Part shown: one piece after another, positions 13,278-47,232 of the stretch
How the letters are laid out: each line of letters begins with the position of its first letter
Position numbering within the stretch: position 1 is the first letter of the stretch
Origin: Acholeplasmatales bacterium
Lineage (GTDB): Bacteria; Bacillota_I; Bacilli_A; Acholeplasmatales; Anaeroplasmataceae
Direction: 5' to 3'
DNA length: 64,000 bases
Assembly: GCA_017449215.1 (NCBI GenBank)
Contig: JAFSJY010000017.1
Span: 1 to 64,000, forward strand
Translations under genes and position numbers: made by a program
The notes under the pieces: model-generated
The model's input: only the letters and a program-made list of their open reading frames with translations
What the model was told of the DNA's origin: nothing
The model's database searches: none

Positions 13278-13291
13278 AAAGAAGAAATAAA

Positions 13292-13448
13292 TATTAGAGG
13301 TAGCAATGCAAATGAGTAATATATCTAGGAGGCATCCGTTATGGTATATGAAAGGTAACCATTGCCGAATAGAAATTCCGGCAGGAATTATCTATGGGGA
13401 TATAGGAAATACTTATATCACTCCTACAATGTTGTAGAGGCGCTAAAA
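13292..13448 (+). promoter_or_regulatory. Lysine riboswitch (L box)
   Basis: The leader carries the conserved lysine riboswitch blocks in order: AGAGGTAGC, GAGTA, GGAGG, GAAAGG and GCCGAA, then a hairpin with AATTCC and GGAATT arms. TTAG at the 5' end and CTAA at the 3' end can close the domain. The arms GCAATG and CATTGC enclose the first part. It is followed by a terminator and then lysA, dapF-like, dapA and dapB. Lysine binding is expected to favour termination. The call rests on motif order and on the downstream genes; a covariance search was not run. Confidence 0.85.
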
Positions 13449-13476
13449 AATAATTTTCATTTATATGTAAACTATA

Positions 13477-36578: not shown

Positions 36579-37871
36579 TTGGAAAGAAAGCCAATTATCG
36601 AATTGCACAATATCGTTAAATATTATGGCGATAACTGTGTTGTAGATAACATTGATTTGGATATCTACGAAAATGAGTTTATTACTCTTTTAGGACCATC
36701 TGGTTGTGGTAAAACTACTACACTAAGAATGATCGGAGGATTTGAGTATCCTACAAGTGGTGAAATTATTGTTAATGGAAAGATTATTAATGATCTACCT
36801 GCTTATGCAAGACCTATTAATACAGTTTTCCAAAGATATGCATTATTCCCACATTTAAACGTTTTTGATAACGTTGCATTTGGTTTAGTAAACCGCGGAA
36901 GAAGATTTTTAATCGATTTTTATGGCGGCGATGAGCAAGTTGCAAAAGATGCCTTAGAGTACAACCAAAAGATTGGTAAGGCTCAAGGAAAGACTGTACC
37001 TTCTTATTTTGATATTAGAAGATACCTTAAGGCTAGAGTTGCTGAATCAGTAAGTGAAGCATTAAAGCTAGTTAATCTTTCTGGTTATGAGGAGAGAAAG
37101 ATTGACAAAATTTCAGGTGGACAAATGCAGAGAGTTGCAATTGCCCGCGCCATTATTTTAAAGCCAAAGATTCTTTTACTAGATGAACCATTATCTGCAT
37201 TAGACCATAAGCTAAGAGTTAACATGCAATACGAGCTTAAGGAAATGCAAAAGAATCTAGGTATTACATTTATTTTCGTTACACATGACCAAGAAGAAGC
37301 AATGGTTATGAGTGACCGTATTGTTATTATGAAGGATGGTATCATCCAGCAACAAGGTTCTCCAAAGGATATCTATAATGAACCAAACAACAGATATGTT
37401 GCTAACTTCATTGGTGAATCTGATATTGTTAAGGGTGTTTACCTAAAGAAGAATTTAGTTAAGTTCTTAGGACAAGAATTCCCTGTAGTTGGTTATGAAT
37501 TCGATGATAATGAAATCGTTGATGTAGTAATTAGACCAGAGGACTGGGATATCGTTCCAAGAGAAACTGCAAAGGTTATTGCTAAAGTTACATCTTCAAT
37601 CTTCAAGGGTGTTCATTACGAATTATTAGTAGATATCGAAGGTAATGAATTCGTTGTACATACATATGAAGACATTCAAGCAGGAGAAATCATTGGTTTA
37701 ACAGTAGACCCATATGAAATCTGCTTAATGAAGGAAGATGGTTCACCTAAAAAGCTTGTACCATTAACTCAGGAGGAATCAAGAAAGGCTGTTACATTAT
37801 TTGATGTAGCTGCTAAGTATGAGACTAAGAATGATTTCTATGGTCATGAGGAAGCTTCGGAGGAAAAGTAG
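36579..37871 (+). CDS. potA: Spermidine/putrescine ABC transporter ATP-binding protein
   Basis: PotA drives polyamine import with PotB, PotC and PotD. The 430-residue protein has Walker A GPSGCGKTT, the Q-loop in TVFQRYALFPHL, signature ISGGQMQR, Walker B ILLLDEPLSALD and H-loop VTHDQEEAM, then a C-terminal TOBE-type regulatory domain. About 40 extra residues lie between VAFGL and the signature, in the helical subdomain, compared with E. coli-type PotA. The start is TTG at 36579, with TAA three codons upstream in frame and no close ribosome site. It is followed three bases later by potB. Confidence 0.92.
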   Translation: MERKPIIELHNIVKYYGDNCVVDNIDLDIYENEFITLLGPSGCGKTTTLRMIGGFEYPTSGEIIVNGKIINDLPAYARPINTVFQRYALFPHLNVFDNVAFGLVNRGRRFLIDFYGGDEQVAKDALEYNQKIGKAQGKTVPSYFDIRRYLKARVAESVSEALKLVNLSGYEERKIDKISGGQMQRVAIARAIILKPKILLLDEPLSALDHKLRVNMQYELKEMQKNLGITFIFVTHDQEEAMVMSDRIVIMKDGIIQQQGSPKDIYNEPNNRYVANFIGESDIVKGVYLKKNLVKFLGQEFPVVGYEFDDNEIVDVVIRPEDWDIVPRETAKVIAKVTSSIFKGVHYELLVDIEGNEFVVHTYEDIQAGEIIGLTVDPYEICLMKEDGSPKKLVPLTQEESRKAVTLFDVAAKYETKNDFYGHEEASEEK

Positions 37872-39643: not shown

Positions 39644-41003
39644 TCTTTTATTATTAGGAGCTTCTTTATTAACTTTATCTTCATGTGGTAGTAAAGATAC
39701 TTTATTATTTCTTAACTGGGGAGAATATATTGATGAATCATTAATTGAATCATTTGAAGAGGAATATAATTGTACTGTTCAAATGGATTTAGGCGAAAGT
39801 AACGAAATTTTCTATTCAAAGGCAAAAGCAGGTACAACTGTTTATGATGTAATTTGTCCATCAGATTACATGGTAGAAAAGATGTATGTTAATGAACTTT
39901 TAGAAAAATTAGATTTTTCACAATTACCAAATGTTGATTTAGCTGATAGAAAGCTATCTACTAAGAAAATTTATGAGGATATGAATATCAACCTTAAGCA
40001 ACACTTAGGTGATTCATATGAAATGGGTACCATTGAAAATTATGCAGTACCTTATCTATCTGGTACTTGGTGTATTATGTATACAACAAAGAAGGATGGA
40101 GTTGAACAAGCAGTAACAAATAATGCTAAAAATCAATGGGGTTCATTATTTGATAGATCTACATTACCAGCTGGTACTAAGGTAGCTATGTATGAATCTC
40201 ATCAACATGACTATTATGCATTATCTAGATATTTAGGATTAGATCCAACACTAGAACAGCCTCAAAATGTATTAGACCAAATGGAAAAAATCATTTCTGG
40301 CATGAATTATGATGCATGGGGTACAGATACAATTAAGAAGGATATCGTAGCTGGTAATATTCATTTAGGCTATATGTGGACTGGTGATTTCCTATATTAT
40401 TATTCTGAAAACGCCGCTAATCAAGCAATGGATGCTTATTTAGCAGGTGATATTAAAATTGATGAGGTTGCTAACTTCTTAGATGTAATTACATCTGATG
40501 AAAGAAAGTATACTGTAAATGATAATACATATGAAATTGGATTTGATTGCTTTATTCCTGATGATACAGTTGCCTTCTGTGATAACCTAGTTATTACTAA
40601 GGATTCTGCAAATAAGGAATTAGCATATAAGTTCATTGATTATATGTTAACATCTAAGGTAGAAGATGAAGAAGAATCATCACCTGCATTTACTAATACA
40701 TATTATGTAGACTATGACGCTCCATATAATACTGTATATAATGACTTAGTTGCATTAGCTGATACAGAAATCTTTACTCAAGAAGTAGCTGATGAATTTG
40801 ATCCTAAGGATGGAGATCCTTATGATTCAGATTTATATTGGTTATTCTATGATTATGCAATTGGGTTAAGCTTTGCTAAATATTATGAAAATGATGAATA
40901 TTTAGAAGCTAATAATTTAGAGCCAAAGGGTAATATTCTAGCATTATTTGATAGAAAATACGTTAATAGAATTAATGTAACATTCAATAACGCAAGAGTA
41001 TAA
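39624..41003 (+). CDS. potD: Spermidine/putrescine-binding lipoprotein PotD
   Basis: The 459-residue protein is the extracellular substrate-binding component, tethered as a lipoprotein: a short signal ends in the lipobox LTLSSC. The mature start LLFLNWGEYID is typical of PotD/PotF. Trp, Tyr and Asp residues in the binding regions (for example CPSDYMVEKM, GYMWTGD) fit a polyamine site, though the exact ligand is not decided. It is longer than E. coli PotD (about 350). It closes the operon and is followed by a terminator. Confidence 0.92.
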   Translation: MKRRMASLLLLGASLLTLSSCGSKDTLLFLNWGEYIDESLIESFEEEYNCTVQMDLGESNEIFYSKAKAGTTVYDVICPSDYMVEKMYVNELLEKLDFSQLPNVDLADRKLSTKKIYEDMNINLKQHLGDSYEMGTIENYAVPYLSGTWCIMYTTKKDGVEQAVTNNAKNQWGSLFDRSTLPAGTKVAMYESHQHDYYALSRYLGLDPTLEQPQNVLDQMEKIISGMNYDAWGTDTIKKDIVAGNIHLGYMWTGDFLYYYSENAANQAMDAYLAGDIKIDEVANFLDVITSDERKYTVNDNTYEIGFDCFIPDDTVAFCDNLVITKDSANKELAYKFIDYMLTSKVEDEEESSPAFTNTYYVDYDAPYNTVYNDLVALADTEIFTQEVADEFDPKDGDPYDSDLYWLFYDYAIGLSFAKYYENDEYLEANNLEPKGNILALFDRKYVNRINVTFNNARV

Positions 41004-43192: not shown

Positions 43193-44428
43193 ATGGAATT
43201 TAAGGAAAAGCTTAAAAAATTAAGAAATGATAATAATCTAAGTCAAAAAGAATTAGCTGATGCTATCTTTGTTTCAAGATCAGCCATTGCTAAATGGGAA
43301 AATGGTAATGGTGTACCAAGTGATGATAATTTAAAAGAAATCATTAAATATTTTAATTTACCAAGTGATTATTTTAATGAATCTAAATTTGATATTAATT
43401 TATATCGAAAGCTTGTAAGAAGAAGACAAATAATAATTAAATCTATTAAGATAGGCGTGGTTGCTTTACTTGTTATAACAGCTTTATTATTAATAGAAAT
43501 ACTAGCACCTAGCATAGGTAGTGAATTTGTAGTAGATGGATATAGATATAGAATTATAGATACTAAATATTTGTTTTCAAAAGGCGAAGTAAAATTAATT
43601 GAAACAGAAGACGAATCTGATGAATTAATTATTCCAGATACTGTAACTAAATGCTTTGGTATATTTCCAGATACATTTAAGGTTAAATATGTTTCCCCAG
43701 CTGTTTTAGTTGGTAAGAGTGTAAAGCTACCTAGATATTTTGAAGGCTATCATAAAAATACTAAAATATCTGATTACTATTTACGTGAATCATTTATTAA
43801 AAATATTAGTGTTTCTGAAGAAAATGAGTATTATGATTCAAGAGAAGATTGTGGTTGTATAATTGATTCAAAAACGAATATTCTTCTATATGCTTCAGAA
43901 AATTATTTTTTACCTAAATCTGTAGTTGGTGTTGCATCTTTTGCTTTTCTAGCTTTTATGTATAATAATGGAACTAAGTTTATTCTACCAGATAATATTG
44001 AAATATTAGATGATTGGGCTTTTGGTCATTATCCTGGTGGTATAAACCTAGAAGATAATTTGATGATAGATTATTATGATTTTTCTAAAGTTAAAGAAAT
44101 TGGCAGTGGTGTTATAAATGGAATTAAAGTAAGAAATAATTCAACAATTATATTGCCAAGGACAATTGAGAAGATGGATTATACTGCATTTGGTATTCAT
44201 ATCGACAATAAAAATGTAAATTTTTACTATAAGGGTTCACTATCTGATTGGAACAATATACAACTTAAAGTTCGTTATGGTGATTTAAAAAATATGAGTG
44301 ATGCCAACGAAGACGATTTATATTTTTTAGAAGGAAATAATCTATATTTTTATTCTGAAATAGAACCAGTAGAAAAAGGTAAATATTGGCATTTCGATAA
44401 CAATAATCAGCCAATAGTTTGGAATTAG
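43193..44428 (+). CDS. Membrane-spanning XRE regulator with LRR-like outer domain
   Basis: The 411-residue protein joins three parts. Residues 1-62 form an XRE-type HTH (LRNDNNLSQKELADAIFVSRSAIAKWENG). Residues ~82-105 form one membrane helix. Residues ~110-411 have BspA-like LRR_5 features (for example VVGVASFAFLAF, IEILDDWAFGHYPGG, IEKMDYTAFGIH) and should lie outside the cell. The layout suggests a regulator that links an outside signal to DNA binding, but the ligand and target are unknown. A strong AAGGAGG precedes the ATG. It is a single-gene unit with its own terminator. Confidence 0.8.
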   Translation: MEFKEKLKKLRNDNNLSQKELADAIFVSRSAIAKWENGNGVPSDDNLKEIIKYFNLPSDYFNESKFDINLYRKLVRRRQIIIKSIKIGVVALLVITALLLIEILAPSIGSEFVVDGYRYRIIDTKYLFSKGEVKLIETEDESDELIIPDTVTKCFGIFPDTFKVKYVSPAVLVGKSVKLPRYFEGYHKNTKISDYYLRESFIKNISVSEENEYYDSREDCGCIIDSKTNILLYASENYFLPKSVVGVASFAFLAFMYNNGTKFILPDNIEILDDWAFGHYPGGINLEDNLMIDYYDFSKVKEIGSGVINGIKVRNNSTIILPRTIEKMDYTAFGIHIDNKNVNFYYKGSLSDWNNIQLKVRYGDLKNMSDANEDDLYFLEGNNLYFYSEIEPVEKGKYWHFDNNNQPIVWN

Positions 44429-44438
44429 TCTTATTATT

Positions 44439-44471
44439 GAGAAGATAGGTTTTTCTATCTTCTTTTAATTT
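44439..44471 (+). terminator. Intrinsic terminator
   Basis: GAAGATAG (44441-44448) and CTATCTTC (44455-44462) form a stem, followed by TTTTAATTT. Confidence 0.8.
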
Positions 44472-44497
44472 GACTATTTTGTCAATTATGATATAAT
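44470..44497 (+). promoter_or_regulatory. Strong promoter of the structured leader and polyamine genes
   Basis: TTGACT (44470-44475) and TATAAT (44492-44497) are 16 bp apart, and TGA before the -10 makes it an extended type (TGnTATAAT). The start would be near 44504, about 265 nt before the coding region. Confidence 0.75.
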
Positions 44498-44503
44498 CTT
44501 TTT

Positions 44504-44719
44504 GTAAACAAAAGCTCATTTAGAGTCGTAGTCGAAATGGCTTCATGCCGTAAGTGATAAATTATCACATTATTGATTGAGTTAAAAGCTCAAATTTTAT
44601 AAGTTGGTTACTTTACAACCTTTGCACTTTGTGCCACTTGTGAAACGGTCAATAAGAGTAGTAAAAGTATTATTTACTGTATAGACTCTATATGAATACA
44701 ATTCATTTTAAGTTTTATT
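44504..44719 (+). promoter_or_regulatory. Structured leader RNA, candidate riboswitch of unknown class
   Basis: The 341 bp between genes is mostly a folded leader. TCATTTAGAGTC (44516-44527) pairs with GACTCTATATGA (44684-44695), with one mismatch, closing a 180-nt domain. Inside are TTATTGA/TCAATAA (44570-44576 with 44649-44655) and hairpins ATGGC/GCCGT (44537-44551), GTGATA/TATCAC (44554-44568), TTGAG/CTCAA (44577-44593), GCAC/GTGC (44624-44634) and AGTAAA/TTTACT (44660-44678). TAGTCG at 44529 can pair with the 3' arm of the terminator downstream, a possible antiterminator. It does not match riboswitches I recognise. Confidence 0.6.
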
Positions 44720-44748
44720 ATAGTCGCACATATAGCGACTATTTTTTT
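44720..44748 (+). terminator. Leader terminator before the polyamine genes
   Basis: ATAGTCGC (44720-44727) and GCGACTAT (44735-44742) form an 8-bp stem followed by seven Ts. It lies between the structured leader and the ribosome site GAGGAGG, where it could attenuate transcription. Confidence 0.8.
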
Positions 44749-44769
44749 GTTATACGAGGAGGATATATT

Positions 44770-46029
44770 ATGGGTAGAGTAATAGTAATTGGATGTGGTG
44801 GTGTAGCTACAGTAGCTATTCATAAATGTTGTCAACATCCTGAGGTTTTTACTGATTTATGTATAGCATCTAGAACAGTATCAAAATGTGATGCACTAAA
44901 GGAAAAATTACAAAATACAACTAAAACTAATATTACTACAAGACAAATAGATGCTAATAACTTAACTGAGTTAATTCATTTCTTTGACGAATATAAGCCT
45001 GATTTAGTTATGCATTTAGGTATGCCATATCAAAATTTAATTATTATGGATGCCTGCTTAATTTGTAAATGTAATTATCTAGATACAGCTGCTTACGAAC
45101 CAGAGGATACTGATGAACCAGTATGGCGTAAGAGATATGAGGAAAGAATTAAGGAAAAGAATTTTACTGCATATTTCGATTATAGCTATCAATGGGAATA
45201 TAAGAAGAAATTTGAAGAGGCTGGTCTAATTGCTTTACTTGGATGTGGATTTGACCCAGGTGTAACTCAAGCTTATGTTGCTTATGCGAAGAAGCATGAA
45301 TTTGATAGAATTGATACATTAGATATTTTAGATTGTAATGGTGGTGACCATGGCTATCCATTTGCTACAAACTTCAATCCTGAAATTAATTTAAGAGAAG
45401 TATCTAGTGAAGCTGATTATTATGAAAATGGTAAGTGGATTAGAGTACCTGCAATGTCAGTAAAGAAACAATATAATTTCGATGGTGTAGGTATGAAGGA
45501 TATGTATCTATTACACCATGAGGAAATTGAATCTATCTCTACAATTTATCCAGAAATTAAAAAGATTAGATTCTATATGACATTTGGTCAATCTTATATT
45601 ACTCATATGAATTGTTTCCAAAACGTAGGATTATTATCTACAACACCTATTATGTATGAAGGAAGAGAAATAACTCCAATTCAATTCCTAAAGGCATTAT
45701 TACCAGATCCTGCAAGCCTAGGACCTAGAACTAAGGGTAAGACTAATATTGGTTGTATCTTTACTGGTGTTAAGGATGGTAAAGAAAAGAAATACTATAT
45801 TTATAATGTATGTGACCATGAGGAAGCTTATAAGGAAACTGGCCTTCAAGCAATTTCTTATACAACAGGTGTACCAGCAATGTGTGGTGCTATGATGATT
45901 TTAAATAAGGTTTGGACTAAGCCAGGTGCGAATACATTAGAGGAATATGATCCAGATCCATTTATTGAAGCATTAGATAAATATGGTCTTCCAAAGAGAG
46001 AATCATATGATCCAGTTATGGTGGACTAA
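44770..46029 (+). CDS. Carboxynorspermidine/carboxyspermidine dehydrogenase
   Basis: The 419-residue protein is of the saccharopine dehydrogenase type and closely resembles carboxy(nor)spermidine synthase. This enzyme joins a diamine to aspartate semialdehyde with NADPH to give carboxyspermidine or carboxynorspermidine. It opens with the Rossmann motif IVIGCGGVATVA and has HLGMPYQNL, LLGCGFDPGVTQAYVAYA and YTTGVPAMCGAMMI. The start MGRVIVIG follows GAGGAGG; a longer frame from 44692 overlaps the leader. The decarboxylase gene follows with no gap. The asd gene at 17344 would provide aspartate semialdehyde. Confidence 0.88.
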   Translation: MGRVIVIGCGGVATVAIHKCCQHPEVFTDLCIASRTVSKCDALKEKLQNTTKTNITTRQIDANNLTELIHFFDEYKPDLVMHLGMPYQNLIIMDACLICKCNYLDTAAYEPEDTDEPVWRKRYEERIKEKNFTAYFDYSYQWEYKKKFEEAGLIALLGCGFDPGVTQAYVAYAKKHEFDRIDTLDILDCNGGDHGYPFATNFNPEINLREVSSEADYYENGKWIRVPAMSVKKQYNFDGVGMKDMYLLHHEEIESISTIYPEIKKIRFYMTFGQSYITHMNCFQNVGLLSTTPIMYEGREITPIQFLKALLPDPASLGPRTKGKTNIGCIFTGVKDGKEKKYYIYNVCDHEEAYKETGLQAISYTTGVPAMCGAMMILNKVWTKPGANTLEEYDPDPFIEALDKYGLPKRESYDPVMVD

Positions 46030-47232
46030 ATGAAGGATTTAAGACCACCCTTTATTGGATTAAAGGATATTAATCCTACTGAATTTTTTAAAAATATTAA
46101 AACACCTTGCTATATGATTGATGAGGCAATGATTATTAAGGATTGTGAAATTCTAAAATCAGTACAGGATAGAACAGGTGCGAAAATATTATTAGCTCAA
46201 AAGGCATTTTCTAACTTTAATTTATATAACATAATTGAGCCATATCTTGCAGGTACTGAGGCATCAGGTCTATATGAGGCAAGACTTGGAAAAGAAGAGA
46301 TGCCAAATAAAGAGGTACATGTATTTAGTGCTGCCTATAGAGAAGATGAATTTAATGAGCTATTAAAATATGCAGATCATATAATCTTTAATTCAGTTTC
46401 TCAATTAAAAAAATATGGAAAAAAGGCAAAAGCTAATGGTAAAGAAATTGGATTAAGAATTAATCCTGAAATCTCTACTCAGCCAGGCCATGAAATATAT
46501 GACCCATGCTCAAGTGGTTCAAGACTTGGCGTTACTATTAATTCGTTTATAGAAGAAATGACAGATGAATTAATTAATATGTTAGATGGAATTCATTTTC
46601 ATACATTATGCCAACAAAATTCAGATGATTTAGAAAAAACATTAAATGTTGTTTTAGATAGATTTGGTAAATATTTTAATAATTTAAAATGGATTAATTT
46701 TGGTGGTGGACATCATATCACAAGATTTGATTATGATATTGAAAGATTAATTAGATGTATAAATCTAGTTAAGAATAAATATAATGTAGATGTTTATTTA
46801 GAACCAGGAGAGGCAGTAGTATTAAATGCTGGATATGTATTAACTAGAGTATTAGATAAATTTAAAAAGAATGGAATGAATTTCCTAATAGTAGATACAA
46901 GCGCTGCTTGTCATTTCCCTGATGTACTTGAAATGCCATTTTTACCACCATTATATTTAGCTGATTTAGAAGGTAATGATATTCTATATAGAATAGGCTG
47001 TCCTACCTGCTTAACAGGTGATGTTATTGGTAATTATAAATTTAAAAATGAAATAAATGTTAATGATTTATTAATCTTTGGAGATATGGCATTATATACA
47101 ACATGTAAGAATAATACCTTTAATGGTATGCCATTACCTGACATTTATATCTTAAGAAAAGATAAAAAAATAGATAAAATAACTAATTTCGGGTACACAG
47201 ATTTCAAAATGCGTCTCGGTAAATTGAATTAA
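46030..47232 (+). CDS. nspC: Carboxynorspermidine/carboxyspermidine decarboxylase
   Basis: The 400-residue protein is a fold-III PLP enzyme of the LysA-related NspC group that decarboxylates carboxy(nor)spermidine to (nor)spermidine. It has the PLP lysine in LLAQKAFSNFN, IHFHTLCQQ (NspC-type, unlike the HSHIGSQ of LysA at 13528), NFGGGHH, LEPGEAV, and CPTCLTGD with the active-site Cys. Its ATG directly follows the dehydrogenase stop. Together they give an AdoMet-independent spermidine route, common in gut bacteria. Spermidine versus norspermidine cannot be told. Confidence 0.92.
   Translation: MKDLRPPFIGLKDINPTEFFKNIKTPCYMIDEAMIIKDCEILKSVQDRTGAKILLAQKAFSNFNLYNIIEPYLAGTEASGLYEARLGKEEMPNKEVHVFSAAYREDEFNELLKYADHIIFNSVSQLKKYGKKAKANGKEIGLRINPEISTQPGHEIYDPCSSGSRLGVTINSFIEEMTDELINMLDGIHFHTLCQQNSDDLEKTLNVVLDRFGKYFNNLKWINFGGGHHITRFDYDIERLIRCINLVKNKYNVDVYLEPGEAVVLNAGYVLTRVLDKFKKNGMNFLIVDTSAACHFPDVLEMPFLPPLYLADLEGNDILYRIGCPTCLTGDVIGNYKFKNEINVNDLLIFGDMALYTTCKNNTFNGMPLPDIYILRKDKKIDKITNFGYTDFKMRLGKLN

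Follow-up and report, generated by a model that had tools for sequence, protein, structure and literature searches.

A probable polyamine riboswitch upstream of CANSDH and nspC in an Acholeplasmatales bacterium, and its relatives ahead of polyamine synthesis and uptake genes

Natural polyamine riboswitches have long been claimed and were recently shown for a rare variant of the SAM-I riboswitch with 13 examples (PMC10853860). This spermidine riboswitch, validated by Salvail et al. in 2023 (PMC10853860), precedes the polyamine genes speE, speB, speD and ldcC and acts as a transcription-terminating OFF switch with a terminator and an antiterminator. The speF RNA motif has been reported without a demonstrated ligand (PMC11477304). 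Here we describe a 180-nt folded leader RNA in a stretch of 64,000 nt (the window; positions 1-64,000 of the forward strand of contig JAFSJY010000017.1, assembly GCA_017449215.1, Acholeplasmatales bacterium), in which a promoter, the leader and an intrinsic terminator are followed, in this order, by CANSDH and nspC. We consider it probable that this leader is a cis-acting transcription attenuator and most likely an OFF riboswitch for a polyamine of the spermidine type, with ligand and direction of control suggested by its architecture and the genes it precedes. Sequence comparison places it, as a divergent member, in a larger and mostly unclassified class of leaders preceding genes for polyamine synthesis and uptake.

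The window leader resembles the SAM-I variant in its gene context and in the proposed termination-based OFF control; however, the aptamer of the latter is the SAM-I four-stem junction, whereas the window leader and its homologues have a different architecture and no SAM match in Rfam. Similarly, the speF motif (speFL leader) precedes a polyamine-synthesis gene, but it is alphaproteobacterial, and the window leader has no Rfam match to speF. At gathering thresholds, only the 5S rRNA and one lysine riboswitch were recognized by Rfam in the whole window. The latter, an ordinary RF00168 element (77.5 bits) at 13287-13453, is also a large leader aptamer, located before the decarboxylase-family gene lysA and further diaminopimelate-pathway-like genes; unlike this element, the region 44516-44695 does not match RF00168 at E values up to 10. 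At the same permissive limit the window leader had no credible match to any Rfam family, including T-box, lysine, cobalamin and SAM families, and none to a family of unrelated role. The view of the first-pass annotation that the leader falls into no known class is thus correct for the window, but does not extend to its relatives, many of which carry RF02440 at their 5' end.

RF02440 (SpF59_sRNA, a Streptococcus small RNA (sRNA) also termed 'ldcC RNA') is a 54-nt model which, like the leader class, sits before decarboxylase genes, and which also matches in the Lactococcus lactis control genome. It is typed as sRNA and excludes the core of about 150 nt, the switch and the terminator. In many homologous leaders (G182, G442, L071-L076 and others) this module forms the head and the core then follows; in those of G182 and G442 it is recognized by Rfam itself. 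The module (UGACC-hairpin-AAGGCCAUACGGACAGCCGGGUCAAAUGCCGA) was not detected in 44400-44800 at E values up to 10, where only AUGCCG remains, and the window leader has the 3' core of RF02440-bearing leaders from the same class of bacteria. This suggests that RF02440, filed as a short sRNA, constitutes the 5' segment of a leader acting in cis, at least in the genomes studied. No paper using ldcC RNA or SpF59 in this sense was found in the literature covered, to which the first account of the ldcC motif does not belong. The core of the class is absent from Rfam; parts of the class may have been described elsewhere.

Homologues were identified with a covariance model (R1) trained on six leaders of the same genus, the window included. 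A search of the order gave nothing credible outside the genus; matches were obtained in other families of the class, namely in G182 (E 8.5e-16), G430 (3e-15), G453 (1e-11), G342 and G442. The core model R2, from which the closing stem P1 was omitted because relatives with the 5' module differ at their 5' end, matched 16 of the 43 genomes of family f17, mostly ahead of speD-decarboxylase operons. In family f22, RF02440 matched in 15 of 126 genomes, in most cases followed by the same core: R2 recognized eight of 14 new RF02440 loci at E < 1e-5 (L071-L076, L079 and L081), and L052 likewise. Locus L072, found via RF02440 alone and outside the training set, scored 124 bits with the core model. Altogether, the class was located in more than 30 genomes. 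One further match, in G019 (E 0.035, L020), was taken as chance, as it falls within apparently protein-coding DNA, and three sequence patterns searched in viral contigs gave no matches.

The genes following these leaders are mostly concerned with polyamines. The G182 leader precedes speD (TIGR03331) and an ornithine/lysine/arginine (Orn/Lys/Arg) decarboxylase gene, and those of G430 and G453 precede Orn/Lys/Arg decarboxylase genes. In f22, the leader is followed by nspC alone (L071; TIGR01047, 424 bits), by potA (L072, and L073 from reading of the N terminus) or by potD (L076), and RF02440 leaders are followed by speD at L077, L078 and L080. Genes for lipoproteins of the C39-like or M28 peptidase type follow the leader class at L055, L067-L070, L075, L079, L081, L084, L052 and L074.

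Comparison of the homologous leaders showed a conserved and covarying core that, as read from the alignment, consists of a P3/P4/P5 three-way junction and the hairpins P2, P6, P7 and P8 (Table 1). In alignment A5 (31 sequences, 39 pairs, 500 shuffles), 94.8% of the cells are paired, compared to 37-52% in shifted controls, by which relatedness is partly controlled. Two-sided changes occur at 23 of the 39 pairs (11.9 in shuffles; none of the 500 as high) and in 99 cells (29.7 in shuffles). Every modelled pair covaries in P2, P4, P6 and P7, while P3 and P5 are nearly always paired and vary mostly on one side. The short forms of the G342 group have neither P6 nor P7. P1 closes the core in the window's genus, and in many relatives the 5' RF02440 module precedes the core; P1 is unsupported as a class-wide feature, since the 5' end differs in relatives carrying the module. 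A kissing loop between P6 (UACUUU) and P8 (AAAGUA) was discarded: it is perfect in the window's genus and broken without compensation in G182, G430 and G453, as judged by eye. Homology, covariation and gene context support the riboswitch-like logic before polyamine genes proposed from the window alone, and the helices have proved to be conserved and covarying among homologous leaders.

Conservation of this kind might also be expected for a leader bound by an RNA-binding protein, as protein sites, too, can be conserved and precede terminators. We regard such protein-dependent attenuation, without direct sensing of a metabolite, as unlikely, since a large fold with a multi-helix junction, conserved in several families and ahead of many kinds of genes, would rather be expected of an RNA that binds a ligand; furthermore, no dedicated regulator gene was noticed beside the leaders examined, although no systematic search for one was made. 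An even smaller chance, and the smallest among the alternatives, is given to ribosome-mediated attenuation by a leader peptide, similar to the speF/speFL arrest-peptide systems. Short ATG open reading frames do occur in individual leaders, such as MASCRK at 44537 in the window; however, none is common to the class, MASCRK shrinks to two codons in G003 (ATG GCT TAA) and is missing in G016 and G007, and none of the reading frames listed is preceded by a Shine-Dalgarno-like sequence.

The first-pass annotation had further proposed a switch in which the 3' arm of the terminator pairs instead with the repeat TAGTCG at 44529-44534. With -9.1 kcal/mol, such a pairing is plausible in energy, but G007 and G016 have both lost the repeat, although adjacent letters may stand in for it in G016; an antiterminator formed by 44529-44534 alone was therefore rejected and the repeat retained only as a helper. 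A pairing of 44629-44646, which comprises the 3' strands of P5 and P7, with the terminator 5' arm (44711-44731) is better conserved. To test this type of pairing, the P5 3' strand, extended by 10 nt on its 5' side, was compared with the spacer to the start codon, using dinucleotide shuffles of the spacer as null. The duplex had -13.3 kcal/mol in the window (p = 0.045), -17.5 in G016 (p 0.036), -17.7 in G430 (p 0.014) and -14.1 in G342 (p 0.006). Fisher combination of one leader per genus yielded p = 1.2e-4, or 1.6e-3 when the worst value per genus was taken, and six held-out leaders gave a combined p = 7e-4, though L074 and L076 individually fail. The partner letters vary among groups while complementarity persists, as with UCACAAGU in L071. 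The partner of the switching strand in the G342 group is found close to the Shine-Dalgarno region instead of in a clear U-tract terminator.

The switch is thus supported statistically, and the P5 3' strand, together with that of P7, appears to be common to aptamer and antiterminator, which complementarity supports but does not prove. For the window, the state with aptamer and terminator is predicted at -59.7 kcal/mol, compared to -54.8 kcal/mol when the antiterminator is forced. In this second structure the terminator 3' arm is in turn bound by 44527-44534, so that both pairings are compatible within one predicted read-through structure. Complementarity and predicted energies accordingly point to mutually exclusive structures in the expression platform. 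A conserved alternative pairing speaks against a transcript acting mainly in trans as an sRNA, with the terminator as its normal 3' end. Rfam does type RF02440 as "Gene; sRNA", and a terminated leader would build up as a short RNA, but in the loci read a same-strand gene lies directly downstream, most often one for polyamine synthesis or uptake, and leaders of the G342 group have the partner of their switching strand near the Shine-Dalgarno region. We thus consider an sRNA role improbable.

Taken together, a riboswitch might operate as follows. With plentiful polyamine, spermidine or a close relative would bind the core and lock P5; the terminator stem at 44720-44742 would then form, leaving CANSDH and nspC untranscribed. 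With polyamine in short supply, the P5 3' strand would capture the terminator 5' arm and allow read-through, assisted in the window by 44527-44534, which would take the terminator 3' arm. Because the P5 3' strand would be held either inside the aptamer or by the 5' arm of the terminator, ligand binding would terminate transcription, and the presence of a terminator together with end-product logic suggests the OFF direction. Since one leader class serves two unrelated routes to spermidine, we infer that a shared polyamine, most simply spermidine, is the likely ligand. A riboswitch of the same kind with another ligand, be it putrescine, agmatine or cadaverine, a carboxy-polyamine intermediate, or a different signal of the cell, is a less likely reading, but the most serious of the alternatives. 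Candidate amines lie near the regulated genes, as Orn/Lys/Arg decarboxylases make agmatine, putrescine or cadaverine; the uptake genes are compatible with any imported polyamine, and the peptidase lipoprotein targets hint at a wider signal. On the other hand, only spermidine-type products are end products common to the CANSDH/nspC and SpeD-based routes, with putrescine, their shared precursor, as a possible ligand too.

Several observations weigh against a spermidine-type riboswitch. The antiterminator test is individually non-significant in several leaders, e.g. G007, G509, G442, L074 and L076; P5 shows one-sided changes only; and A5 was fitted to a covariance model, which favours its structure. 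The ligand-binding part is hard to place, because the short forms have no P6 and P7 and the window has no 5' module. Finally, some members precede the secreted C39-/M28-type peptidase lipoproteins, which have no obvious link to polyamines. On balance, and by a narrower judgement than for the window leader, we lean towards a new class of polyamine riboswitch with a three-way-junction core of about 150 nt, an optional RF02440 5' module and a fold unrelated to the SAM-I variant, which would control CANSDH/nspC and SpeD-based routes, polyamine import and some secreted peptidases by competition for the P5 3' strand. Its significance would lie in a single RNA, folded unlike the SAM-I variant, that is tied to two unrelated spermidine pathways as well as to polyamine uptake; the ligand is thereby narrowed to a shared polyamine, and the question becomes directly testable.

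Table 1. Features of the leader locus in the window, with the evidence for each
Feature	Position	Strand	Evidence or remark
Sigma-70-type promoter, TTGACT - 16 nt - TATAAT, TG ahead of -10 (extended)	44470..44497	+	11/12 consensus letters
P1 5' strand TCATTTAGAGTC, form of the window's genus	44516..44527	+	Sequence, folding
UAGUCG repeat, able to pair with terminator 3' arm	44529..44534	+	Not conserved in G016 and G007
Small hairpin AUGGC-UUCAU-GCCGU	44537..44551	+	Occupies position of RF02440 module of relatives; AUGCCG kept
P2 hairpin	44554..44568	+	Two-sided changes at 5/5 modelled pairs
P3 5' strand TTATTGAT, closing P3/P4/P5 three-way junction	44570..44577	+	99.1% of cells paired
P4 hairpin UGAG-UUAAAAG-CUCA	44578..44592	+	Two-sided changes at 4/4 pairs
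P5 5' strand UUUUAUAAG	44595..44603	+	99.6% of cells paired; one-sided variation at 6/9 pairs (G-U/A-U exchanges)
P6 hairpin GGUU-ACUUUAC-AACC, loop conserved	44606..44620	+	Two-sided changes at 4/4 pairs; missing in short forms
P7 hairpin GCAC-UUU-GUGC	44624..44634	+	Two-sided changes at 4/4 pairs; 79% of cells paired; missing in short forms
Putative antiterminator 5' strand UUGUGCCACUUGUGAAAC, comprising the P7 and P5 3' strands	44629..44646	+	Duplex with 44711-44731
P5 3' strand CUUGUGAAA, proposed switching strand	44637..44645	+	Complementarity tests, alignment
P3 3' strand GTCAATAA	44648..44655	+	Covariation alignment
P8 hairpin AGUAAAAGUAUUAUUUACU	44660..44678	+	Strong conservation
P1 3' strand GACTCTATATGA	44684..44695	+	Contains GACUC, kept in many relatives
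Putative antiterminator 3' strand, overlaps terminator 5' arm	44711..44731	+	Predicted duplex
Intrinsic terminator, 8-bp stem 44720-44742, then T tract	44720..44749	+	Terminator scan
Shine-Dalgarno-like GAGGAGGA	44756..44763	+	Sequence
CANSDH, carboxynorspermidine synthase family (NF043000)	44770..46029	+	E 3e-114, under equivalog cut-off; saccharopine dehydrogenase domains (Pfam)
nspC, carboxynorspermidine decarboxylase	46030..47232	+	TIGR01047, 414 bits (cut-off 409)

Within the window, the extended -10 promoter, closing stem, nested helix, roughly five hairpins, 8-bp terminator and TAGTCG repeat described at first pass were all recovered in place. The promoter layout is alike in G003, G024, G016 and G007, as judged by eye. 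P1 spans 12 positions with a single U-U mismatch, and its outer pairs are AACC/GGUU in G007 where the window has UCAU/AUGA. The small hairpin at 44537-44551 is missing from G016 and G007, and the P6 loop of G453 is likewise ACUUUAC. The domain 44516-44695 folds with -45.7 kcal/mol (z = -3.5) and the whole leader (44504-44760) with z = -3.9; for neither region did any of 200 shuffles reach the same stability. Two terminator-like sites were observed in the 401-nt stretch around the leader, compared to 0.1 expected from shuffles; the letters of the terminator stem are replaced in G016 and G007 with pairing retained.

The leader occurs once in the window's genome and was found by DNA search in five further genomes of the same genus, in G024 at a contig end. 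Between G000 and G007 the leader core is about 91% identical and the coding DNA of CANSDH 75%. A search of the window genome (98.7% complete) revealed no AdoMet (S-adenosylmethionine) decarboxylase (PF02675), so that CANSDH/nspC is its likely spermidine route. Upstream lies a spermidine/putrescine-type ATP-binding cassette (ABC) operon, which starts with a potA-like gene at 36579 and finishes at 41003 with the gene for a solute-binding protein; the counterpart of this last gene in G003 immediately precedes the leader. In the window, a gene for an HTH_3 protein (43193-44428) sits between operon and leader.

Among the 14 same-genus genomes with CANSDH, five have the leader and nine have a gene for a regulator of the helix-turn-helix (HTH)-cupin type directly upstream. 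This gene was identified by Pfam for L030 and by sequence similarity at the remaining loci; it lies immediately 5' of CANSDH at L029-L037 and L040, i.e. in these nine genomes and G053. Leader and HTH-cupin gene look like swapped regulators ahead of CANSDH that would both respond to polyamines. Two other families of the order, f2 and f4, have a different conserved leader ahead of CANSDH (L047:1029-1117; L041, L042, L043, L045 and L046). It scores 31-37 bits with the cyclic di-GMP (c-di-GMP)-I riboswitch model RF01051, around the cut-off of 35, and its core letters depart from the RF01051 consensus; thus, it may bind c-di-GMP or, as a variant aptamer, some other ligand.
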